Shown piece by piece: positions 2,448-25,447 of a stretch of DNA of 25,618 nt; positions within the stretch are counted from its first letter, which is position 1; each line of letters starts with the position of its first letter. This DNA is from a virus. A program made the translations under genes and the position numbers. Under the pieces are notes generated by a model. The model was not told the origin of the DNA and searched no databases. It saw only the letters and a program-made list of their open reading frames with translations. The stretch lies in IMG/VR virus record IMGVR_UViG_3300013130_000042, positions 1 to 25,618 of that record. One strand, given 5' to 3'.

Positions 2448-4328
2448 TTATGCCGCCTCACCCCAACTTGGTCCAACCTCAACATCGACACGAGAGGGCA
2501 CTTCCAGACGAACAGCACTCATCATGAGCTCTGCCGCCTCACGTGCTTCTTCCTTGCTTCGCACCGACAGCGCGATCTCGTCATGCACCTGCAAGCGGAT
2601 GTCGAATCCGGCCTTGTACAGCGCCACCATCCCGGCCTTGGTTTGATCGGCCGCAGAGCCTTGGATGAGGCGGTTCAGGCCCTTGTAAGTGCCTGCTCGC
2701 TTGATCCGTTGGCCGTATTCAATGATGGCTTGCTCACGGGGCAGAGCCTTGTTCACGCCCCACTCCACCGGCTCCCACAGCGGGAAGCGGCATTTGCGGC
2801 CCAGGAGCGTCCTGATCGCGCCACCCGAGGCCGGGTGCTCGATCCTGCGCATCACCGCGTCCACGGTGCCCTTGAGGAACGGCACCTTGCTGTGGAAGGT
2901 GGCGATCAGCTCGCTGGCCTCGTCCAGGGGCAGGTCCAGGCTGTTGGCCAGCTTCTGCTTGCCCATGCCGTACATCAGGCCCAGGCCGATGGTCTTGGCA
3001 GCCTTGCGCTTGATCCCGGCCATGTCCGCGACCATCTGGTGGAAGTCGGTATCGGGGTTTTCCCGATAAGCGTCGGCCATCTTTTCAGCGCCTGGCAGGC
3101 CGAGCAAGGTGGCGTAGTGCACCAGGAGGCGCGGTTCTTGGGAGCTGAAGTCGTTGGCCGCCCAGAGCTGGCCATCCTCGGGCAGGAAGAGGCCGCGCAC
3201 CAGCGGGCCGATCACCTCGTGGCGGGCCGGAACCTGCTGAAGGTTGGGGTTGGATGCCGAGAGCCGCCCGGTGACCGTGCCCCCGTCCTCGTTTCTCATC
3301 TGGTTGAAGTGCGTGTGGATGCGGCCGTCCTTGGCGCTGTGCCTGAGGTAGGGCTCCAGGAACGTGCCATGGGTCTTGTTGAACTCCCGCGCCTCCAGGA
3401 TCATCTTGGCCATCGGGTGCTCGTGCGTGTCCAAGAACGTCTTGGTGAAGCTCGGCGCGCCCTGGGCGGTCTTGGGGTATTGGATGCCCAGCTTGTTGAA
3501 GGCCTGGGCAATGCTGGCGGCGGCCCAGATGTCCACCTTCACCCCGGCCTGGTTCTTGATGTACTTGAGGATGTCGGTTTCTTTGCGCCGCATCTCCTCG
3601 ACCTGGCGCTCGCACTCGGGGCGGTTGAAGCGCACGCCCTTGAACGTGATGTCCAGCAGCACTGGTAGCACGTCGGTCTCCAACTCGAAGATGGAGTGCA
3701 CTTCTTCGCGCTGAATCAGCGCTTTGAAGTGGTGCCAGAGCTTGAGCGTCAGCGCCGCGTCCTGCTCGGCGTACTCGCCAACGTGCATGGCGGGCAGCTT
3801 CCAGAGTTCCTTCTTTGGGTGGACGCCGAAATCCTGCGCAGCCTCCTTGAGCCCTTGCTCGGACTTGACGTCCTTGAGGTAGTCTAACCCCAGGGCGTTG
3901 AGACTGTAGCTGAAGCGGTTTTCGTCGAGGAGCGGGGCGGCGAGCATCGTGTCATAGATGCGGCCGTTGATGGTGAATCCACTTGCACGAAGCCACCCGG
4001 CGTCGTAGGTGGCGTTGTGCATGATCTTGTCGGCCCCAGTCGCAAGGACATCCGCAATCCATCGCTCCACAATCCGGCGATCAAGGTTCCCGCCGCCGCC
4101 ATGAGCAACAGGAAAATAGCCTGACCATCCGTCAACGGCAACAGCGTACCCAACAATGTAGCCGTCACCGCGAGGCCAGCCAGGGCCCATGGATTCCATG
4201 TTGGGGTCGCAGGTTTCGAGGTCAATTGCAATCTCCGTGGCTGTGGACAAGTTCGGGAAAACCTGTGGAGGAACCCACTCCGACTGGCGCGGGAAGAGAG
4301 ACATGGCCTGGGTGTCGCGTTTTTTCAC
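2448..4328 (-). CDS. Family A DNA polymerase with 3'-5' exonuclease
   Basis: This 626-residue replicative polymerase has a proofreading domain and a polymerase domain but no 5' nuclease domain. Exo I is DLET (D36, E38), Exo II HNATYD (N105, D109) and Exo III YAEQD (Y186, D190), so proofreading should be active. Polymerase motif A is ANDFSSQEPR with metal ligand D393; motif B is RKAAKTIGLGLMYGMG (R441, K445, Y453); motif C is QVHDE with D583. The residue matching E. coli Pol I Phe762 is Leu449, a variant common in aquatic phage polymerases and expected to change nucleotide discrimination. The GTG start at 4328 overlaps the helicase TGA as GTGA, with AGAAAGGA upstream; ATG at codon 9 is an alternative. 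It is the last gene before the terminator at 2375-2400. Confidence 0.96.
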   Translation of the reverse strand: MKKRDTQAMSLFPRQSEWVPPQVFPNLSTATEIAIDLETCDPNMESMGPGWPRGDGYIVGYAVAVDGWSGYFPVAHGGGGNLDRRIVERWIADVLATGADKIMHNATYDAGWLRASGFTINGRIYDTMLAAPLLDENRFSYSLNALGLDYLKDVKSEQGLKEAAQDFGVHPKKELWKLPAMHVGEYAEQDAALTLKLWHHFKALIQREEVHSIFELETDVLPVLLDITFKGVRFNRPECERQVEEMRRKETDILKYIKNQAGVKVDIWAAASIAQAFNKLGIQYPKTAQGAPSFTKTFLDTHEHPMAKMILEAREFNKTHGTFLEPYLRHSAKDGRIHTHFNQMRNEDGGTVTGRLSASNPNLQQVPARHEVIGPLVRGLFLPEDGQLWAANDFSSQEPRLLVHYATLLGLPGAEKMADAYRENPDTDFHQMVADMAGIKRKAAKTIGLGLMYGMGKQKLANSLDLPLDEASELIATFHSKVPFLKGTVDAVMRRIEHPASGGAIRTLLGRKCRFPLWEPVEWGVNKALPREQAIIEYGQRIKRAGTYKGLNRLIQGSAADQTKAGMVALYKAGFDIRLQVHDEIALSVRSKEEAREAAELMMSAVRLEVPSRVDVEVGPSWGEAA

Positions 4329-5824
4329 AGCCGGAATCCTTTCTGTTCATTCTTGGGCAGCACAATGTGCAGGCTCTGCTTGGCCCGGGTGATTCCGACG
4401 TACAGCAGGCGGTTGATGTCGTCCGAGTTGCGCTCGTAGTCCTTGGCAAACTTGGTGGTCAGGTCACCCATCAGGAGCACGTTGTCGGCCTCGCCGCCCT
4501 TGGCTCCGTGGATTGTGGATAACTTGATCGGAGCCTTGCCGGTGAGCTTCACGCCTTGGCGCAGCAGCGAGACGATGTACTGGCGGCGGTCCCCTGCGAT
4601 CTTGGTCAGGGCCTTGTGCCAAATTTCTGTAGAAAGAAGTCCGTGCTTTTCTTTCAGCAGATCGAGGGTGTACTCGATCTGCGGGTCGGCCGTCTTCAGA
4701 CCCTTGTGCCCGTGTTTCACGGCCTCTGTGCCAAGGTACTTGTAGATGGTGCGCACCACCTCGAACGGCACGCTGCCGCCCTTGCGCAGGCGCTCCCAGC
4801 CCAGCACGGCCGTGAGCACGGCCTCGGGCACGGACCGTTGTCCGTGGCGCTCGAACAGCAGCCCTTGGCTCTTGAGCCAGTCGTGCATGTCTGTGAGCAT
4901 GTAGTTGGCCGCAGCCAGCACCAGCCACTCCCCGTGAGTCACATCCACCTGTGCCCAATCGTTGTAGTAGTGCACCTCGCCCTGCTCCTGCCGGGCCTTC
5001 CAGGTCTTGGGCTGGCGCTTCCTGATGCGGTGGACCACGGTGTTGGCCAAGGCATGCACCTTGGCTGGCACGCGGTAGGACTGGTCCAGCACGTGCACCT
5101 CGCCCTCGAAGTTCAGGAAGCTGTCAACGTCGGCTCCGGCCCAGGTGTAGACGGCCTGGTCGTCGTCGCCTGCCAGAAAGCAGCGCTGGGCTCGCAACGC
5201 GAGTTGCTCGACCAGCCTCCATTGCAAGCGGGAGAGGTCCTGTGCCTCGTCGATGATCAGAGCGTCGAGCCGTGGCAAGCGGTCCGGCTCCAGCAGCACG
5301 TGCTCCAGCAGGTCGGTGAAGTCCAGCAGCGCGTGCGACTGCTTGTAGTGCCGGTAGGCGCGTTCCACGTACTCGAAGTGGAACCACTCCAGGTCCATGC
5401 GCGACTGGTTGTAGTGGGTCTTGAGGTCCAGGCCCTTGATCCGTGCGATGTTGACCTCGTTGAGGATCGGGTTGTCCGCCTGCACCATGAAGTCGTCTTC
5501 GCCCGTGCCGACGTTGATCTCGATGCCCGCCTCCTGCGCGAACTCGCGGTAGTTCTCGGGCGTCATCATGTCCTTGGTGCCGATGCCAAGGCACCGGTAG
5601 GCCAGGCTGTGCAGCGTGCGAAACCACGGGAAGTCGGTGTCGGGGTTCAGGCCGGGAAACTTGGCCACGGCGCGATCCCGCGCCTCGTTGGCCGCCTTCT
5701 TGGTGAAGCTGAAGTACCCGATCTTGGTCGGGTGCGTGTTGTCAGCCAGCTCCTGCTGGACGACGTTGAGCAGATAGGTCGTTTTGCCTGAGCCGGGCGG
5801 CCCAAATACCTTAGTGATTGCCAT
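4325..5824 (-). CDS. UvrD/Rep-like superfamily 1 DNA helicase
   Basis: This ATP-driven DNA unwinding enzyme of 499 residues carries all the main SF1A motifs. They are Walker A FGPPGSGKTT (7-16), the Ia-like region SFTKKAANEARDRA, motif II IDEAQD (191-196), motif III AGDDDQAVYTWAG (218-230), motif IV LDQSYRVP (246-253), motif V STIHGAKGGEADNV (436-449), and motif VI LLYVGITRAKQ (473-483). At about 500 residues it is shorter than cellular UvrD/PcrA (about 720), as is usual for phage members. ATG 5824 has GAGG upstream and overlaps the 69-aa gene by 14 bases. It sits between primase and polymerase, so a role at the phage fork or in recombination is likely; no DnaB-type helicase is present nearby. 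Confidence 0.93.
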   Translation of the reverse strand: MAITKVFGPPGSGKTTYLLNVVQQELADNTHPTKIGYFSFTKKAANEARDRAVAKFPGLNPDTDFPWFRTLHSLAYRCLGIGTKDMMTPENYREFAQEAGIEINVGTGEDDFMVQADNPILNEVNIARIKGLDLKTHYNQSRMDLEWFHFEYVERAYRHYKQSHALLDFTDLLEHVLLEPDRLPRLDALIIDEAQDLSRLQWRLVEQLALRAQRCFLAGDDDQAVYTWAGADVDSFLNFEGEVHVLDQSYRVPAKVHALANTVVHRIRKRQPKTWKARQEQGEVHYYNDWAQVDVTHGEWLVLAAANYMLTDMHDWLKSQGLLFERHGQRSVPEAVLTAVLGWERLRKGGSVPFEVVRTIYKYLGTEAVKHGHKGLKTADPQIEYTLDLLKEKHGLLSTEIWHKALTKIAGDRRQYIVSLLRQGVKLTGKAPIKLSTIHGAKGGEADNVLLMGDLTTKFAKDYERNSDDINRLLYVGITRAKQSLHIVLPKNEQKGFRL

Positions 5825-6020
5825 TGCGTTGCCTCAATCGTTCTTTGACTTCTGGAGTAAGGTCCGGAAGCGGGGCCCATGCCACACACCAGGAATCCCA
5901 CGTGCCGATGACGCACACGCCGCCGGGGGGCAGCAGCAACATCTTGCTGCCGCCAGGAGGTCGATCTTCCTCGGGAAGACGCCAAACGGCCGCGCCGGAG
6001 ACGTGCTTCATGACACTCAA
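5811..6020 (-). CDS. Small hypothetical protein between primase and helicase, 69 aa
   Basis: The frame starts at TTG 6020, overlapping the primase stop as TTGA, with AGGAG 6 bases upstream; an internal ATG at codon 4 is a second choice. The product has a Pro/Gly-rich centre with PPGG twice (residues 22-25 and 32-35), then a hydrophobic Cys/Trp-rich stretch VCVIGTWDSWCVAWAPLPD, and a basic tail (EVKERLRQRNGNH). No membrane segment is convincing. No family is recognised. It is locked between primase and helicase by overlaps on both sides (4 and 14 bases), which suggests co-translation and perhaps a small replisome accessory role. Confidence 0.6.
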   Translation of the reverse strand: MSVMKHVSGAAVWRLPEEDRPPGGSKMLLLPPGGVCVIGTWDSWCVAWAPLPDLTPEVKERLRQRNGNH

Positions 6021-7549
6021 AATGGGCTCCTATTTTTCACCTGCTCGGGCGTCTCGAAAGGCGCATCCTGGCCAGCAAAGCGCGGCATGCGCCAGCAGCG
6101 CACCGTGCGGTTCTTCAGGAACAGGCTGATCGGCTCACCACCAAGCTCACGGATGCGCTGGGCCATCTTCGGTGCGGTCAGGCCCTTGAAGTTGTTGCGG
6201 GTAAGGTGGGCTTCGAGGTCCTTCATACGGAAGTAGACCTTGGCCTCGTCCTCGTTCACCCAAGGGCGGCCCATGAGGATTTCATCGCGGTCCATGGCTT
6301 GTTGCATGTGCGTCGTGAACTCCTCGACCAGATCATTGAAACGTCCAGTCAGGCTGGTGTCCTCGGGCGCTTCAGTGATCTGTTCACTCTCGACCATCTC
6401 CCGCAGGAGGGCGTTGAGCATCTGCTCCCAGTCTTGCTTGCGCAGCGTGGGCGGCAGGACGTTGATGCGCTCGATGCAGGCCTTCTGGAATGCGGCCTGG
6501 TTGAAGAGGCTGTCGGTATCGAGCTCGACGCGCTTGCCGTTGACGTCGAGAAACCAAAGAGGGGGCTCGCTGTTGTACTTGGACAGCGAGGAAAGCTGTG
6601 GGGAGTCTGGGCCGTCACCGCCAATGCCGTATTTACGCGTGCGGCACAGGCCGCTGTGGCAAAACGCGTTCAGGGGCGCATCCTTGCACTTGTACTTGTA
6701 CTCTTTCTTGTGGAGCTGCTTGACGATGATCTGCAGCTCGTTGTTTGGCAGCGGCGGATGCACGTACTTCAGGTTATGGTCTGACAGCTCGTTATCCCAG
6801 GTCGCAGGCTTGGCCCGCTTGAGGTACACGCCGATGGCAAAGAGGGCATTGTTCCGCGTGCCCTCAGGCACGCCCTGCGCACAGATCGCCTGCAGGCATG
6901 GCGGCCCATCCTTGATTGGATGGTCGGGCTTCTTGGGCTCCTCTGGCGGCTCGACGCTCGGGTCCTGCACCCAGCGCTCGTACAGCTCGTAGAACTCCTC
7001 CAGCGTCGCGGCCGTGCCATCGTCTTGGATGGCGTAGCGCATGGTCTGGTCGCCACCGAAGTAGGGCAGGTTCAAGAAGTTACCGGTGTCGCCACGCTCC
7101 ACCAGAATCTCGGCCTGCTTGGGGAAAATCTCGCGCCCGGCCTCGCCGAGCACAGCAGCGCAAGCCTTGAGGTAGCGCTGCATGTTGGCAGCGGGCATCG
7201 GCTCGCGCACGAAGAGAAAGACATGGGCACCACCGGACTTGCTGCGGCAGACAATCAGCGGCAGCTCCAGGTCGCGGATGCGCCTGATCAGCCCCTGGTG
7301 ATCCAGCGGGTACTGATCAATGTCGATGCAGCCCCAGATGCAGGTGTTGTCTGCACGGATGGGGATGATGCCCAGTGACGGGTCGATGCCCTGCAGGTGT
7401 TTGACCCACAGATCATCGGTTGGCGGCTTGCGGACAACAACAGCCTTACCGGCCTGCTTTCCGCTCTCTTTGGACCCCTCGATCTTGTAGGTTCCATAGG
7501 CAATATCGAGGCCGCTGAATATCGCCTTGAACCGTGTGATGTCTGTCAT
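6017..7549 (-). CDS. Archaeo-eukaryotic-type primase (PrimPol/TOTE-like)
   Basis: This 510-residue protein is the likely replication primase. The catalytic core shows CIDIDQYPLDHQG with the paired metal-binding acids D76 and D78, the nucleotide-binding motif CRSKSGGAHVFLF (101-113), and REIFPKQ followed by GNFLNLPYFGG (157-166), the FP-x-Q and GN-x-x-x-LP pattern of TOTE-type AEP primases. Residues about 225-250 (GVPEGTRNNALFAIGVYLKR) fit a PriCT-like C-terminal primase domain. A Cys cluster follows (KCKDAPLNAFCHSGLCRTRK), which could bind zinc. ATG 7549 is preceded by AGAAAGAAGAA, a one-base variant of the early cassette. It lies upstream of helicase and polymerase in one transcription unit. 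No fused helicase domain is visible, so unwinding must come from separate proteins. Confidence 0.85.
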   Translation of the reverse strand: MTDITRFKAIFSGLDIAYGTYKIEGSKESGKQAGKAVVVRKPPTDDLWVKHLQGIDPSLGIIPIRADNTCIWGCIDIDQYPLDHQGLIRRIRDLELPLIVCRSKSGGAHVFLFVREPMPAANMQRYLKACAAVLGEAGREIFPKQAEILVERGDTGNFLNLPYFGGDQTMRYAIQDDGTAATLEEFYELYERWVQDPSVEPPEEPKKPDHPIKDGPPCLQAICAQGVPEGTRNNALFAIGVYLKRAKPATWDNELSDHNLKYVHPPLPNNELQIIVKQLHKKEYKYKCKDAPLNAFCHSGLCRTRKYGIGGDGPDSPQLSSLSKYNSEPPLWFLDVNGKRVELDTDSLFNQAAFQKACIERINVLPPTLRKQDWEQMLNALLREMVESEQITEAPEDTSLTGRFNDLVEEFTTHMQQAMDRDEILMGRPWVNEDEAKVYFRMKDLEAHLTRNNFKGLTAPKMAQRIRELGGEPISLFLKNRTVRCWRMPRFAGQDAPFETPEQVKNRSPF

Positions 7550-7653
7550 TTCTTCTTTCTATGGAGGTGGGGCCTACTCGCACGAAGAGGGGTACCCGCA
7601 TATTGCCTGACAGGAGCTACCTGGCACGACTCAGCTATCTGGACTCCTCGCAC
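7546..7653 (-). other. Possible 35-codon frame in the gap before the primase
   Basis: The gap 7550-7668 holds no recognisable RNA or terminator. A short frame from GTG 7653 to TGA 7546 would end with an ATGA overlap on the primase start, as real genes do here, and it encodes a basic peptide ending HLHRKKK. The ribosome-binding site is poor. The same frame is continuous with the upstream candidate SSB gene across its TGA. It could be a mini-gene or chance. Confidence 0.2.
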
Positions 7654-7668
7654 TTTCGGCCCCGGAAC

Positions 7669-8445
7669 TCAAAATGGCTGTGGGCCGCTGCTCATCTCAC
7701 CACCTTCTGCACCCTCGTGCTTGACCTTGATGTCGCCCGCGCCGACAGACTGCGCGAACTGCTTACAGGCCAAATAGATGTCGTTGGACTCGACCGGGCC
7801 GATGCGCTCGATCTCCCATCCGTGCCACTTGCCCTTGTCGTTGGACTCGGCCGTGGTGGTCAGGCGGTAGACCTGGCTGTACATGGGCGGCGTGAACAAT
7901 CCGTTCTTGCCGCTCATCTTCACTGACTGCATCATGGAGTTCCACTTGCGGCTCTTCTTGAGCTGCGTGGACTTCATGGTGATCAGTGCGGGGTTGGGCA
8001 CACCGTTTTCGTCAATCAGCATGACGTAGTGGTTTGCCGTGTTCTCGATGTAGTTGCCGTTGTCCAGGTAGTCCTTGTTGTCGCCAGGCTCGCGGTGAGT
8101 CTGGGACAGGATGTCGCTGGTAGCAGGGTAGATGTGCACGGGCGCACCGCTACCTTGCCCACGCGGGGCCCACTCGATGTACTGACGGACGTATGCGCAA
8201 GGTACCACGTGGATACCTTTCTTGCCGTCAAATAGCTCGCCGGTGACGCTGTTGAGTACCATGCCCGGCATCGCGCCGTCCATGTCACCTACTTCAGGGC
8301 TGGTTGAGGTGAGCAGTCGCAGGAACGGCAGTGCATAGTCGTCCTGGTTCATGTTCTCAAAGCCCTGGCCAGCATCCTGCTCCAGGTCGCTCATGATCGC
8401 CAGTGCGGTGCTGGCCTTTTGTTCCGCAATTTCAGTCTTGGCCAT
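7669..8445 (-). CDS. Conserved phage protein, candidate ssDNA-binding protein
   Basis: This 258-residue soluble protein has a helical acidic start and a core rich in beta strands: YALPFLRLLTSTSPEV, MVLNSVTGELFDGKKGIHVV, a Trp/Arg-containing YVRQYIEWAPRGQG, ALITMKSTQLKKSRKWNSMM, and YSQVYRLTTTAES. An ordered core is followed by a Gly/Ser/Glu-rich flexible tail that ends in Pro-Phe (GEMSSGPQPF). An OB-fold-like body plus a disordered tail with terminal Phe is the architecture of bacterial SSB and T7 gp2.5, and the location just ahead of primase, helicase and polymerase fits. I do not have a firm family match, so this is a hypothesis. ATG 8445 is preceded by AGAAAGGACC; another ATG 7 bases upstream is in a different frame and ends after six codons. 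Confidence 0.55.
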   Translation of the reverse strand: MAKTEIAEQKASTALAIMSDLEQDAGQGFENMNQDDYALPFLRLLTSTSPEVGDMDGAMPGMVLNSVTGELFDGKKGIHVVPCAYVRQYIEWAPRGQGSGAPVHIYPATSDILSQTHREPGDNKDYLDNGNYIENTANHYVMLIDENGVPNPALITMKSTQLKKSRKWNSMMQSVKMSGKNGLFTPPMYSQVYRLTTTAESNDKGKWHGWEIERIGPVESNDIYLACKQFAQSVGAGDIKVKHEGAEGGEMSSGPQPF

Positions 8446-8475
8446 GGTCCATGGTCCTTTCTTCGTGGTTCGTGG

Positions 8476-9030
8476 TTAAACAGACTTGATGACAGCTTTC
8501 TGGCCGATGAACACGCCAAAAAGCTCGGTATCGACGGGCTGCCCCTTCTCGATACGCTCCTTGACCCAGGCCTTGAGGGTCTGGGGCTCGATCTTCTCGG
8601 TCTGCTCGGCCGGATAGCCTTGCTCGCCCAGAAGATTGAGAAGTCGCGAGCACAGTTCGTCTTCCTTGCGGCCGAACCGAACGCTCACGGTATTCTTGAT
8701 GATGTCGTCAAAGCCGTTGTCGCGCAGCCATTGGTACGCTTCGGCCTGGCGGGCTTTCGGGATGCTCGCCCCGTAGAACGGCTTGATGCTGATGCTGGAA
8801 CCGTCCTCCATTGCGAAGGCTTTCATACCGGCTTCAGCCATGGCCTCAGGTATCGTCTGCTCGGTCAGCTTGCGGTACTGCTCGGACTTCTCGGACACTG
8901 TTTTTTCAAGGTCCGCGAGTTCCTTCTCAAGCAGCTTCGCACGGCGTGCAAGACCAGAGATACCAGTGACCTGCTCGTCAGAGACTTGCAGGGCGTTGGC
9001 GTCGTTCTCAAATAAATTCGTAAGACTCAT
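8476..9030 (-). CDS. Conserved coiled-coil phage protein, 184 aa
   Basis: The start is ATG 9030 (MSLTNLFENDANALQV), preceded 3 bases upstream by a perfect AGAAAGGAGAAA; the longer frame to 9057 reads through this site and is not favoured. Residues about 30-65 form a charged coiled coil (ARRAKLLEKELADLEKTVSE and on). Then come TIPEAMAEAGMKAFAMEDGS, IPKARQAEAYQWLRDNGF and VSVRFGRKEDE, a strand/helix domain that looks conserved among phage early proteins. The C-terminus (TLKAWVKERIEKGQPVDTEL) is helical. Function is not known; a role bridging replication proteins is possible from its place in the operon. It overlaps the preceding gene by 23 bases. Confidence 0.75.
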   Translation of the reverse strand: MSLTNLFENDANALQVSDEQVTGISGLARRAKLLEKELADLEKTVSEKSEQYRKLTEQTIPEAMAEAGMKAFAMEDGSSISIKPFYGASIPKARQAEAYQWLRDNGFDDIIKNTVSVRFGRKEDELCSRLLNLLGEQGYPAEQTEKIEPQTLKAWVKERIEKGQPVDTELFGVFIGQKAVIKSV

Positions 9031-9352
9031 CACTTTCTCCTTTCTTGAAGAGGTCAACCTCCAGGGGAATATAGCGCCTTTCGCGCTTGTCCCACTTGAG
9101 GCACTTGAAACGGCCCTGATTTTTGGCCGCAGCTACTGCACAGGCAATACCTATTGCAGAGGGGTCGCCGATGAGCAGCAGGTAGTCATCGTCGCAAAAC
9201 TTTTCGAGCTTGCGTTGGATGCGTCGCACTGTTGGCACGACTGAAAACGCAATCTGCGCCATGGGCGGCAGAATGGTCTCGATCTTGCCGTAGTCCAAAG
9301 CACTTGCGATGTTGTGCTGCGTGGTCTCGGACACGACGTACACAGTTGGCAC
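9008..9352 (-). CDS. Conserved hypothetical phage protein, 114 aa, first early gene
   Basis: The start is GTG 9352, fixed by a perfect AGAAAGGAGAAA 3 bases upstream. The product reads as an alpha/beta fold: TVYVVSETTQHNIASAL, a helix ending KIETILPP, PTVRRIQRKLEKFCDDDYLL, then the loop IGDPSAIGIACAVAAAKNQG, which resembles a nucleotide- or phosphate-binding turn without a full Walker motif. A strand FKCLKWDKRERRYIPLEVDL follows. No named family is recognised. It is the promoter-proximal gene of the leftward early block, across from the divergent SNF2 helicase operon, and overlaps the next gene by 23 bases. Confidence 0.75.
   Translation of the reverse strand: MPTVYVVSETTQHNIASALDYGKIETILPPMAQIAFSVVPTVRRIQRKLEKFCDDDYLLLIGDPSAIGIACAVAAAKNQGRFKCLKWDKRERRYIPLEVDLFKKGESDESYEFI
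9034..9045 (-). promoter_or_regulatory. Early-gene ribosome-binding cassette, copy 4
   Basis: AGAAAGGAGAAA on the minus strand, 3 bases before ATG 9030. It sets that start over the in-frame upstream ATG at 9057. Confidence 0.7.
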
Positions 9353-9355
9353 TGA

Positions 9356-9367
9356 TTTCTCCTTTCT
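9356..9367 (-). promoter_or_regulatory. Early-gene ribosome-binding cassette, copy 5
   Basis: AGAAAGGAGAAA on the minus strand, 3 bases before the GTG at 9352. Confidence 0.7.
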
Positions 9368-9381
9368 GAAAACGAGCGGCC

Positions 9382-9412
9382 AGTGTACACTACTTCACAC
9401 GGAGGTTGTCAA
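9382..9412 (-). promoter_or_regulatory. Candidate leftward early promoter with palindromic -10 region
   Basis: The minus strand has a perfect TTGACA (complement of 9407-9412), a 19-base spacer and TACACT (complement of 9382-9387, four of six matches). The -10 lies in the perfect 10-base palindrome AGTGTACACT (9382-9391), which presents TACACT on both strands. On the plus strand it could serve the divergent helicase operon, though the plus-strand -35 (TTTCTG at 9363-9368) is poor. The palindrome could be a repressor operator. The spacer is longer than the optimum of 17. Confidence 0.45.
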
Positions 9413-9437
9413 GCCCCCGGCAAGAAAGAGAGAACAC

Positions 9438-10889
9438 ATGGACAGATTCCTTGAAACCTACCCCTTCAAGAACAAGCCCTTCCTGCATCAGAAGGCATAC
9501 CTGCAGCGCTTCTGGAATGAGCCTGTAGCTGCGCTCTTTGCGGACATGGGCACTGGCAAGAGCTTCATGGTGATCAACAACATCGCCATGCTCTACGACC
9601 AGGGCAAGATCGACGCGGCGCTCATCGTCGCGCCCAAGGGTGCGTACCGCAACTGGTACGACACCGAAATCCCAAAGCACCTGCCTGAGCACATCGTGCA
9701 CCGGATGGCCATCTGGTCCCCAAGCCCGCGCAAGGCCGAGCAAAAGGCGCTCGACGAGCTCTTCGTGTCCACAGAGGACCTGAAGATTCTGATCATGAAC
9801 ATCGAGGCCTTCAGCACGCCCAAGGGCACCGCGTTTGCCAAGCGGTTTTTGTTCGTGCACAACGCCTTCATGGCCATCGACGAGAGCACGACGATCAAGA
9901 CGCCGACGGCAGCTCGCAGTAAGAACACCGAGAAGGTGGGCCGTGGTGCGCGATTCAGGCGCATCATGACGGGTTCCCCGGTCACCAAGTCGCCACTGGA
10001 CCTCTACCAGCAGTGTGCGTTCTTGGCTGACGGCTGCCTGAACATCCACAGCTACTACGCCTTTCAGGCCCGCTACGCGGTGGTGGTTGAGCGGCAGTTG
10101 GCCAGCCACAGCTTCAAGCAGATCGTGGGCTACCGCAGGCTCGATGAGCTCAAGGAAAAGCTCGACCGCTTCAGCTACCGCGTGAAGAAGGAGGAGTGCC
10201 TGGACCTGCCGGAGAAGCTCTACGTCAAGCGCGAGGTGGACCTCACCGACGAGCAGGTGAAGGCCTACAGTGACATGAAGGCGGTGGCCCTGGCGCTCAT
10301 CGACGGGGGCATCGTGAGCACGGTCAACGCCCTGACCCAGCTCATGCGGCTGCACCAGATCGTCTGCGGCCACGTGAAGATGGACGATGGCACGGTCAAG
10401 GAGTTGCCCAACAACCGGATTAAGGAGCTGCTGTCCATCGTCGAAGAGACGGACGGCAAGATCATCATCTGGGCCAACTACCGGCACGACATCGAGGCCA
10501 TCAAGCTGGCCCTGGCCAAGGAGTATGGGATGAACAGCGTGGCCACCTACTTCGGCGACACCGAAGGCGAGGAGCGCCAGCGCATCGTCAACCGCTTCCA
10601 GGACCCCAACGATGAGTTGCGCTTCTTCGTGGGCAACCCCAGCACAGGCGGCTACGGCCTGACGCTCACGGCCGCGCACACGATGGTCTACTTCAGCAAC
10701 AGCTTCGACCTGGAAAAGCGCCTGCAGTCCGAGGATCGGGCGCACCGCATCGGCCAGACCAAGAACGTGACCTACATCGACCTGATCGCGCCAGGCACGG
10801 TGGACGAGAAGATCGTCAAGGCCCTGCGCAGCAAGATCGACATCGCAACCCAAGTGCTGGGGGAGGAACTCAAGCAATGGCTCATCTGA
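9438..10889 (+). CDS. SNF2-type superfamily 2 DNA helicase
   Basis: This 483-residue helicase starts at ATG 9438 (MDRFLETYPFKNKPFLHQKA); the frame stays open upstream but crosses the promoter region. Motifs are Q-like FLHQKAYLQRFW, Walker A ADMGTGKSF (35-43), motif Ia LIVAPKGAYRNW, motif II IDES (147-150), motif III RIMTGSP (175-181), motif V GNPSTGGYGLTLTAA, and motif VI QSEDRAHRIGQ with the SNF2-typical RAHRIGQ. It should translocate on duplex DNA with ATP. Phage SNF2-like proteins are used in replication, recombination or fork restart. It forms an operon with the nuclease (13-base overlap) and is the only rightward transcript here. The Shine-Dalgarno site is modest (AGAAAGAGAGAACAC). Confidence 0.93.
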   Translation: MDRFLETYPFKNKPFLHQKAYLQRFWNEPVAALFADMGTGKSFMVINNIAMLYDQGKIDAALIVAPKGAYRNWYDTEIPKHLPEHIVHRMAIWSPSPRKAEQKALDELFVSTEDLKILIMNIEAFSTPKGTAFAKRFLFVHNAFMAIDESTTIKTPTAARSKNTEKVGRGARFRRIMTGSPVTKSPLDLYQQCAFLADGCLNIHSYYAFQARYAVVVERQLASHSFKQIVGYRRLDELKEKLDRFSYRVKKEECLDLPEKLYVKREVDLTDEQVKAYSDMKAVALALIDGGIVSTVNALTQLMRLHQIVCGHVKMDDGTVKELPNNRIKELLSIVEETDGKIIIWANYRHDIEAIKLALAKEYGMNSVATYFGDTEGEERQRIVNRFQDPNDELRFFVGNPSTGGYGLTLTAAHTMVYFSNSFDLEKRLQSEDRAHRIGQTKNVTYIDLIAPGTVDEKIVKALRSKIDIATQVLGEELKQWLI

Positions 10890-11566
10890 TCCCCTGGTCA
10901 GACCGCTTCAAGTACGAAAAGCTCGAAAGAATGGACACGTCGTCAGGACGTGTCTACGTTTTGCCCAATTCTGTACACGTCCCCTCGGTGACAACGATCT
11001 TGGATCGCACCAAGGACAAGGCAGCTTTGGAGGCGTGGGCGCAGCGCATCGGCCAAGAAGAGGCCCTACGGCAGAAGGAGGAGGCGTCCTACATCGGCAC
11101 GCACATGCACCTGACGCTGGAGGCCATTCTGGCCGGTGATCCGTTGTCCTTGGGCCGTGATTGGTTGGCCATGAAGGGGCACGAGATGGCCTTTCGCCTG
11201 GCCAACAAGTACTTTGGTGCCATCTCCGAGATTCATGGCTCGGAGGTGAGCGTCTATCTTGAGGACCGGTATGCGGGGACCACGGATTTGGTGGCCGAGT
11301 ACCGAGGCAAGCTGGCCATCGTGGACTTCAAGCAGTCAGTGCAGCCCAAGCGGCATGAGTTCATCACGGACTACTTTCACCAGCTCGCGGCCTATGCCAT
11401 CGCGCACGACGCCATGCACGGCACGGACATCGACTTCGCGGCCGTGCTGATCGCGGTTCAGGATGGGACGACGCAGGAGTTCACCACCACGGGCCGAGAA
11501 TTCAAGGAATTCAAGGCCCAGTGGATGGCGAGGGTTACTGCGGCGGCTGCGCTGCCATCCCACTGA
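10877..11566 (+). CDS. PD-(D/E)XK exonuclease, RecB/Cas4-like
   Basis: This 229-residue nuclease has the RecB-family layout. It shows the GTHMHLTLE helix (74-82) with conserved His and Glu, the acidic residue region GSEVSVYLEDRYAGTTDLVA with D137, the core IVDFK (D150, K152) after a beta turn, and QLAAY (169-173), the Q-x-x-x-Y motif that follows the active site in RecB, Cas4 and MGME1-like nucleases. No four-Cys iron-sulphur cluster is present, unlike Cas4. It should degrade DNA ends for recombination or genome processing. ATG 10877 lies inside the helicase end, with GGAGG 10 bases upstream. Its 3' end overlaps the convergent 1079-aa structural gene by 32 bases. Confidence 0.88.
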   Translation: MAHLIPWSDRFKYEKLERMDTSSGRVYVLPNSVHVPSVTTILDRTKDKAALEAWAQRIGQEEALRQKEEASYIGTHMHLTLEAILAGDPLSLGRDWLAMKGHEMAFRLANKYFGAISEIHGSEVSVYLEDRYAGTTDLVAEYRGKLAIVDFKQSVQPKRHEFITDYFHQLAAYAIAHDAMHGTDIDFAAVLIAVQDGTTQEFTTTGREFKEFKAQWMARVTAAAALPSH

Positions 11567-24462: not shown

Positions 24463-24966
24463 TCATGAAAGGAACATGGACCGCTCGTCACGACGACGGC
24501 GGTCAAGGCCTGGTAGCACCTTGCCGCCCGCCTTGTTCCACATCAAAAATGCGTCGGCCGCAGGTTCCCATTCAGCGCGGTTGGCCCGCATACGAATGGT
24601 ACTGCGCTGCAGGTTTCCTAGCCCGACATTAAAGGCAAAAGAGACGAGAGCGTCAAAGCGGCCTTGAGCGCCAGCACTGCCGGGAACAAGTCGAAGAACA
24701 CCGCGTTCAAAATGGACGAGGTCAGCCTTGAAAATCTCAACCAATTCCTCTTTTGACCATACACGATTGTCCTCCGGTTTAAGTTGGTAGTCGCTGCGAA
24801 CTGGCCCTGTGTAACCCCCGACACGGGCGTTGGGCAGGGCCAGTTGATCTGCGTACAGGGCATGGCCCCATCCAATCGTCCAAATCGCAGCACTGCAGCG
24901 ATAAGGGCGATTGCGGTAGCCCTCGAAGTGGTGCATCAGGTCAATACCTTTGCTGGACGTTTTCAT
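24463..24966 (-). CDS. T4-type lysozyme (endolysin, GH24)
   Basis: This muramidase cleaves the peptidoglycan sugar backbone at lysis. From ATG 24966 it has 167 residues. The start MKTSSKGIDLMHHFEGYRNR matches the usual G-x-x-L-I-x-x-FEG opening. The catalytic triad is spaced E-8-x-5-T as in T4 lysozyme: E15, then position 24, then T30 in WTIGWGHALY. Position 24, normally the catalytic Asp, is Cys; Cys at this site is known in some active GH24 enzymes. The C-terminal GRFDALVSFAFNVGLGNLQR and LPGLDRRRRDERSMFL are also conserved. No signal or SAR segment is present, so a holin is required; a probable holin lies two genes upstream. It overlaps the endonuclease by 26 bases. Confidence 0.92.
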   Translation of the reverse strand: MKTSSKGIDLMHHFEGYRNRPYRCSAAIWTIGWGHALYADQLALPNARVGGYTGPVRSDYQLKPEDNRVWSKEELVEIFKADLVHFERGVLRLVPGSAGAQGRFDALVSFAFNVGLGNLQRSTIRMRANRAEWEPAADAFLMWNKAGGKVLPGLDRRRRDERSMFLS

Positions 24967-25447
24967 GTCTTGATCCACATTTATCGAAGTGGTAGCGACG
25001 CATATTGCCGCCTCCCCCCCGTAGTCCACAGTGCGGGCACTCAATCACCAGGCGCTTGCCTTTGCACGCGCTACTGAGTTTTGCGCAGTAATCAGGGTCC
25101 GCAAGACGTTTTGCGGCACCGGCAACATAGGCCTCCTTAAGGCGCTTTATACCGGTTGCACCGTCTGCGCTCGGGGCCTTGTTGTACAACTCCGGCAGCC
25201 ACATGCGAACAATTTCCGTCTCAAGTTTTTTGGCCTCTTCGGGAGTCTGGGTTTCAATAAGTAATCGAAACTCAAACGCCTCCACGCCATACTTTTTAGC
25301 GTCCTCAGCGTACCCCTGATAGTGCAAAAACCGACTGGTTTTTATGTAGCATTTGTGGTGTCGTAAGCGCAACTCCACATTTTTGGAACTGCCAACGTAG
25401 GCCTTTCCATTCAACTTATTGCGAACAACATAGACACCAATGGTCAT
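24941..25447 (-). CDS. GIY-YIG homing endonuclease, free-standing
   Basis: This 168-residue selfish endonuclease carries GVYVVRNKLNGKAYVGSS (GVY at 4-6, YVG at 17-19), a conserved basic region LRLRHH with Arg27, FEFRLLIET (58-66) and the catalytic Glu in LETEIV (about 76). The C-terminal part binds DNA: CPHCGLRGGGGNMRR, then YHFDKC, a Cys/His zinc-like module (C137, C140, H153, C157) found in related homing endonucleases. Hand count of 25201-25440 gives about 45% GC, far below neighbouring late genes (73% and 78% on sampled lines), pointing to recent acquisition. ATG 25447 overlaps the holin stop as ATGA, and its end runs into the lysozyme. No intron is apparent. Confidence 0.9.
   Translation of the reverse strand: MTIGVYVVRNKLNGKAYVGSSKNVELRLRHHKCYIKTSRFLHYQGYAEDAKKYGVEAFEFRLLIETQTPEEAKKLETEIVRMWLPELYNKAPSADGATGIKRLKEAYVAGAAKRLADPDYCAKLSSACKGKRLVIECPHCGLRGGGGNMRRYHFDKCGSRHENVQQRY

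Follow-up and report, generated by a model that had tools for sequence, protein, structure and literature searches.

A phage replication cassette that may use a compact SF1A helicase with an archaeo-eukaryotic primase in place of a hexameric ring

Textbook replisomes centre on a hexameric helicase, and a phage locus that carries its own polymerase and primase with no evident ring raises the question of what opens the duplex at its replication fork. We addressed this question for IMG/VR record IMGVR_UViG_3300013130_000042, a freshwater phage fragment classed as linear, whose entire 25,618 nt are the window analysed here. An original prediction made from these letters had placed a family A DNA polymerase (PolA), a UvrD-like superfamily 1 (SF1) helicase, an archaeo-eukaryotic primase (AEP) and a single-stranded DNA-binding (SSB)-like protein in one cassette, at coordinates that our annotation reproduces (Table 1), and had proposed that they act without a DnaB-type helicase. 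Such a phage would either encode a ring-free replisome or borrow the ring of its host. We give about even weight to the reading that the cassette is a replication module of the phage, with a compact SF1A helicase standing in for the hexameric ring, and offer it as a testable hypothesis and not as a proven replisome. A lineage without a ring would allow fork driving by a Rep-type motor to be tested with five modest-sized proteins.

In transcription order, the leftward cluster reads gp32-like protein, DUF7307 protein, SSB-like protein, AEP primase, a 69-aa open reading frame (ORF), SF1 helicase and PolA. The comparison with relatives that the original prediction called for was made across 80 close loci: the order nuclease, SNF2, gp32-like, DUF7307, SSB, AEP, UvrD, PolA was identical in 52, and the same relative order was kept in the other 28, nearly all of which differed only by missing end genes, as in short contigs. 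Because the order recurs in this way, the gene set is beyond chance. Co-occurrence was assessed in AEP-anchored loci that extend 6 kb or more to both sides of the primase gene, and UvrD, PolA, SNF2 and SSB genes were all present in 75 of 75; this sample is conditioned on AEP and includes near relatives, so that it does not amount to 75 independent events. The loci came from five groups (the window's own, bacterial metagenome-assembled genome (MAG) contigs, HTVC027P-like, 023Pt-like and MW202510-like). Pairwise distance matrices of five cassette proteins correlated at 0.87–0.96, which fits inheritance as a unit.

The candidate fork motor is a UvrD/Rep-branch enzyme and not a member of SF1B (Pif1/Dda-like), its nearest structures and sequences being UvrD, Rep and PcrA. 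It also matches phrog_1967 (1e-83), and SF1 motifs I–VI, with intact Walker A and B, are invariant in 51 diverse helicase sequences (G8, P10, G11, G13–T15, D192E193, Q195D196, GDDDQ at 219–223, R251, T437/H439/K442/G443 and R480). The predicted structure (predicted local distance difference test score, pLDDT, of 92) gave Z scores of 32–33 to UvrD, Rep and PcrA, including Z 33 to Deinococcus radiodurans UvrD (root-mean-square deviation 2.9 over 384 aligned residues) and Z 33 to Rep. Profile alignment with PcrA fell into two blocks (8–368 and 431–498 against PcrA 29–400 and 554–625), leaving a 2B insert of about 62 residues versus about 153 in PcrA. Judged from this alignment the 2B subdomain, some 90 residues shorter than its full-size counterpart, is much reduced. 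The 2B subdomain is autoinhibitory, and its removal activates the Rep monomer and is compatible with Rep helicase activity, for which 2B is not required (PMC13238157, a review). Since 2B is regulatory and dispensable in this sense, we did not treat its shortness as disqualifying an SF1A assignment. By analogy with Rep, the phage helicase may be active as a monomer through its trimmed 2B, and it would be expected to move 3'-5'.

The primase was predicted to stand alone, and its 510-aa protein indeed holds no ATPase domain: an AEP domain (48.1 bits for AEP-TOTE versus a curated Pfam cut-off of 27 bits) is followed by a PriCT-1-like region (PriCT_1 0.0026, below cut-off) and a C-terminal region. 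Among 300 aligned proteins, motif I (D76xD78) and motif II (S105/G107/H109) were conserved at 100% (rounded), while no single Asp at the expected place of motif III was conserved to 97%. Four cysteines beyond the catalytic domain (C218, C288, C297 and C302, spaced C-x69-C-x8-C-x4-C) were likewise at 100% (rounded) of the 300, a pattern that suggests a metal site, possibly for zinc or an iron-sulphur cluster. A search of the primase against PDB sequences gave no match. PolA has Leu at the position equivalent to E. coli 762 (motif RKAAKTIGLGLMYG), as do 167 of 167 relatives in which the motif could be read; in Pan1 and vB_DshS-R5C the residue is Phe. Its translation also contains the 3'-5' exonuclease (proofreading) motifs DLET, MHNATYD and YAEQD. 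From their residues, PolA, helicase and primase all look functional. In four loci (L004, L023, L045 and L070) the helicase and PolA genes seemed to be separated by a 1.4 kb insert, which was set aside as a coordinate-extrapolation artefact or frameshift; inspection, made for L004 only, showed a late start of the helicase frame and a direct overlap of PolA with the helicase. The larger relatives Pan1 and vB_DshS-R5C combine AEP, UvrD and PolA (Phe762) with 7-deazaguanine (queuosine-type) genes, additional SF1 helicases and genes annotated as clamp or clamp loader.

The guess that the cassette encodes an SSB-like protein is supported by modelling. The model (pLDDT 86) adopts an OB fold, and most structural neighbours are SSB or other OB proteins, among them the RB69 gp32 core (Z 6.4 over 158 residues), T4 gp32 with Dda (Z 5.4) and many bacterial SSBs (Z 4–5). 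These values are moderate, Foldseek alone returned nothing with E <0.001, and a profile search gave no match. The disordered tail ends QPF in the window; PF or PY occurs in 128 of 226 relatives, F or Y in 170 and IV in 49. We therefore predict an SSB from the OB-fold model together with the PF/PY tail. The best structural neighbour was the phiC31 recombination directionality factor (RDF) gp3 (Z 9.0 over 146 residues), a likeness that we did not adopt as a function. It hints at a possible origin of the RDF in a replication OB protein, or at a second role as one.

At a fork, the SSB would coat single strands and the AEP primase would lay primers. Unwinding would fall to the SF1A motor, which would track 3'-5' along the leading-strand template, in the manner of Rep on phiX174, and part the strands in front of the Leu762 PolA; this polymerase would synthesise and may have some strand displacement of its own. 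By family, the SNF2 protein is a double-strand translocase; it may clear proteins or remodel forks, and its partner nuclease may trim branches. We infer a fork-motor role for the SF1A helicase, its polarity, any contact between primase and helicase, and independence from host DnaB. In its fullest form the proposal is a self-contained ring-free replisome, present in hundreds of aquatic phages, in which a constitutively active, 2B-trimmed SF1A helicase and AEP would form the bacterial equivalent of the herpesvirus helicase-primase and would work with Leu762 PolA and OB-fold SSB without host DnaB or DnaG; this wider claim is tentative, and we place it somewhat short of an even chance. Nearly all double-stranded DNA viruses that encode a primase also encode a helicase, about 2% excepted (PMC5862659). 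Because of this, and because a phage that uses host DnaB would need no primase of its own, we favour the SF1A helicase as fork motor, and we regard this as the strongest indirect argument.

Whether a ring helicase is encoded elsewhere had to be asked of relatives, since the longest of the close ones reach about 59–63 kb and the 25.6 kb record is an incomplete fragment from which the absence of DnaB cannot be demonstrated. In line with the original prediction, no DnaB- or gp4-type gene was found: DnaB_C was over cut-off in 0 of 64 related records (27 + 37, of which 11 were deposited as complete genomes), while the T7 gp4 control was detected at 7e-20. The only sub-threshold match (in G001) was to an APS-kinase/nucleotidyltransferase-like protein. 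Across 33 related records, the RecA-fold AAA_25 was over cut-off in none, T7 alone exceeding it, lambda P was absent while its lambda control was detected, and no DnaC/IstB-type loader exceeded the cut-off; weak AAA_25 and IstB matches were short P-loop alignments below cut-off, several of them on the UvrD-like gene. The DnaG N-terminal domain was found in 0 of 33, and as T7 was silent too, this search covers DnaG-type primases only. In 15 relatives whose coverage is full or nearly so, a census of Walker-A motifs recovered the UvrD-like and SNF2 genes, plus other ATP-binding proteins, and no further RecA-like motor was recognised in DSL-LC04, 023Pt_psg01, MW202510, HTVC023P/027P, G003, G007 or G008, using a strict motif that may miss some SF2 helicases and with several matches in structural genes not individually assigned. 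Thus SF1 and SNF2 proteins are, as predicted, the only recognised DNA motors in close relatives; in the larger genomes of Nanhaivirus and Pan1, a clamp loader, PhoH and more SF1 helicases occur in addition.

These searches bear directly on the alternative that host DnaB is the fork helicase, recruited by a phage protein such as DUF7307, the gp32-like protein or the C-terminal region of the primase, with the phage supplying primase, polymerase and SSB. Phages commonly recruit DnaB (lambda P and others), and both DUF7307 and the gp32-like protein are conserved and lack an assigned activity. However, no loader of the lambda-P or DnaC/IstB type came over cut-off in the 33 records, and phages that borrow DnaB usually obtain DnaG as well, whereas here AEP is phage-encoded. 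Pbunavirus-type phages, whose polymerase is different, have DUF7307 as well, so it is not tied to AEP. We consider recruitment of host DnaB quite unlikely.

Several points nevertheless weigh against the SF1A helicase as an independent fork motor. UvrD-family monomers are poorly processive, and UvrD-like genes occur in phages without a detected AEP of this kind (Meiothermus MMP7/17), which leaves room for an accessory or repair role of the helicase. A divergent recruiter of host DnaB would escape our sequence searches, many IMG/VR records among the relatives are of unknown completeness, and the distance matrices cover the five cassette proteins alone, with no non-replication control gene. Moreover, some Leu762 PolAs displace strands, so a fork motor is perhaps unneeded; together with a recruiter that escapes detection, this makes the strongest counter-argument. 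Strand displacement leads to a scheme in which PolA itself separates the strands and AEP primes the displaced one, the SF1A and SNF2 proteins being accessory factors for protein removal, fork restart or recombination. Rep and UvrD are accessory helicases in E. coli. Innate strand displacement has been reported for viral PolAs and linked to SNF2 neighbours, such that the polymerase may replace a helicase (Keown et al. 2022, PMC9069017). In vitro, however, just two of five primer-extending Leu762 PolAs, which may lie outside the clade of the window PolA, displaced strands (PMC9069017). An optional accessory would also not need to be present, as the UvrD-like gene is, in 75 of 75 well-sampled loci. 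Replication by strand displacement therefore seems to us somewhat unlikely.

By its Leu762 and gene neighbours, and not by a tree, the window arrangement appears to be a member of a described PolA class. The original prediction had implied that such a set is rare, which is contradicted by the available portion of Nasko et al. 2018 (PMC6302109), where PolA with UvrD and SNF2 and without a ring helicase is already published and abundant in virioplankton. In that portion, a UvrD-like gene lies beside 68% of Leu762 Group II PolAs and an SNF2-like gene beside 45%, UvrD always occurs with SNF2, ring helicases are already contrasted with non-ring ones, and Leu762 PolA with UvrD and SNF2 accounts for 16.4% of PolA-contig reads in a Chesapeake virome, second after Tyr762 with gp4. 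The window shares with this module the Leu762 PolA, the UvrD-like and SNF2-like neighbours and the non-ring helicases; the term AEP does not occur in the available text, which likewise does not describe an SSB or the absence of DnaB, DnaG and loader from complete genomes. To this our analysis adds that AEP primase and OB-fold SSB are constant partners, and that DnaB, DnaG and known loaders are missing from the relatives searched. If true, a ring-free replisome would account for a class of virioplankton that is abundant yet has seen little biochemistry, and isothermal amplification might be built on it.

Among named phages, DSL-LC04 (OR003939, proposed 'Dishuiviridae', PMC10611076) has the same cassette in the same order (primase 77%, helicase 71% and SSB 76% identical), with an 85-aa small gene in the primase–helicase slot versus 69 aa in the window. 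The available text of its description does not discuss replisome type (PMC10611076). T7 (gp4, gp5, gp2.5) resembles the window phage in joining a family A polymerase to an OB-fold SSB in a small phage-encoded set; its gp4, however, is a fused TOPRIM primase and hexameric helicase, in contrast to AEP with a separate SF1A motor. A Rep-type SF1A helicase is the fork motor of phiX174, which borrows Rep and polymerase from its host and uses a nicking initiator; none of the last was identified in the window phage. The nearest functional analogy would be the helicase-primase of herpesviruses, which use a family B polymerase. In UL5/UL52/UL8, too, a viral SF1 helicase joins an AEP primase with a cysteine-rich metal site, with no hexameric ring (PMC8187027). 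UL5 is Pif1-like and moves 5'-3' (PMC8187027), whereas the phage helicase is of the UvrD/Rep branch and so stands outside the herpes family; no UL8 counterpart was identified in the phage, whose putative helicase-primase is proposed from gene content.

Parts of the cassette also recur in a wider assemblage. The DUF7307 family was found in 445 phage records and the SSB-like family in several hundred, and the Pam3_gp34-type SSB-like family was present in 10 of 10 examined phages of Pbunavirus, Abidjanvirus, Vojvodinavirus, Kylevirus, Carpasinavirus, Wifcevirus and others (L358, L359 and L361–L368). In these ten, DnaB_C was over cut-off in none and AEP-TOTE was not found; a Dda-like SF1 helicase is annotated in several, and Pol III alpha in Pbunavirus. 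Lack of a ring may thus be widespread among the gene sets of this assemblage, the pairing of SF1A with AEP being one version. In wide-flank views of Pbunavirus, Abidjanvirus and Vojvodinavirus, a gene annotated just as DNA helicase takes the SNF2 position beside SSB and DUF7307. That SNF2-type helicase, DUF7307 and SSB genes keep together in these phages with other polymerases or helicases would suit a cassette serving mainly recombination or repair (SNF2, nuclease, SSB and UvrD-like protein), with replication proper left to host factors. In the window's relatives, however, a polymerase and a primase with intact catalytic residues accompany the set in all well-sampled loci, and we regard such a repair module as very improbable. 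For DUF7307 we retain the description of a conserved replisome-associated partner.

Table 1. Features of the window discussed in the text, in order of position.
Feature	Length	Coordinates	Strand	Matches or basis
Family A DNA polymerase (PolA)	626 aa	2448-4328	-	DNA_pol_A 5.1e-59; exo1 3.3e-8
SF1A helicase, UvrD/Rep/PcrA-type, compact	499 aa	4325-5824	-	UvrD-helicase 6.3e-32; UvrD_C 8e-12
ORF in variable slot between primase and helicase	69 aa	5811-6020	-	no family match
Stand-alone archaeo-eukaryotic primase	510 aa	6017-7549	-	AEP-TOTE 1.5e-12; phrog_21866 'primase' 3.1e-99
OB-fold SSB-like protein (predicted), Pam3_Gp34 family	258 aa	7669-8445	-	PF23977 1.1e-66
DUF7307 protein, Pam3 gp33-like		~8476-9030	-	PF23984 1.1e-33
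Pam3_gp32-like protein, first gene of leftward cassette	114 aa	9008-9352	-	PF23992 1.7e-27
Divergent intergenic region, leftward cassette versus rightward SNF2-nuclease pair		9353-9437		from gene starts
SNF2-type SF2 translocase (probable corrected start)	483 aa	9438-10889	+	SNF2-rel_dom 1.9e-18; Helicase_C 7.8e-13; phrog_62 1.5e-124
PD-(D/E)XK nuclease, overlaps SNF2 gene		10877-11566	+	PDDEXK_1 5.5e-7; phrog_298 exonuclease 3.7e-52
Phage lysozyme, adjoins GIY-YIG gene		24463-25044	-	2.2e-33
GIY-YIG endonuclease		24941-25447	-	1.4e-10

Two small proteins had been thought to be locked into the set by overlapping genes. For the 69-aa ORF this did not hold: it overlaps both neighbours, yet was recognisable (tblastn) in just 3 of the 80 close relatives, where the slot is empty in some, with primase and helicase genes overlapping directly, and is occupied in most others by another small gene, commonly for an 80-aa 'MLKIDGHD' protein. 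Because the slot is empty or otherwise filled in relatives, overlap with neighbours is no mark of a machine part, and we rejected the ORF as a replisome component. The slot looks like a hotspot for gene exchange within the replication operon. The conserved extras are instead DUF7307, whose start at 9030 was picked by length agreement with the DSL-LC04 protein (184 aa), and the gp32-like protein, the gene for which was present in 67 of 80 close loci.

The SNF2 neighbour was correctly anticipated, although it lies outside 2448-9352, is transcribed divergently and, by comparison with relatives, probably starts at 9438 and not at 9309. The region between the divergent genes is probably regulatory; a search for a sigma-70 consensus in 9300-9500 gave no match. 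An Rfam scan and a tRNA search of the window were also negative.

Lysogeny, which Leu762 might suggest, was rejected: a tyrosine integrase was found in 0 of 28 relatives, with lambda detected as control, and serine recombinases were not searched for. We also rejected host assignment through bacterial genome bins, as matches fell only in MAG contigs from unrelated phyla. These close relatives are probably mis-binned viral contigs that do not identify a host; their bins are labelled Verrucomicrobiota, Armatimonadetes, Burkholderiales, Pirellulaceae and Flavobacteriaceae.

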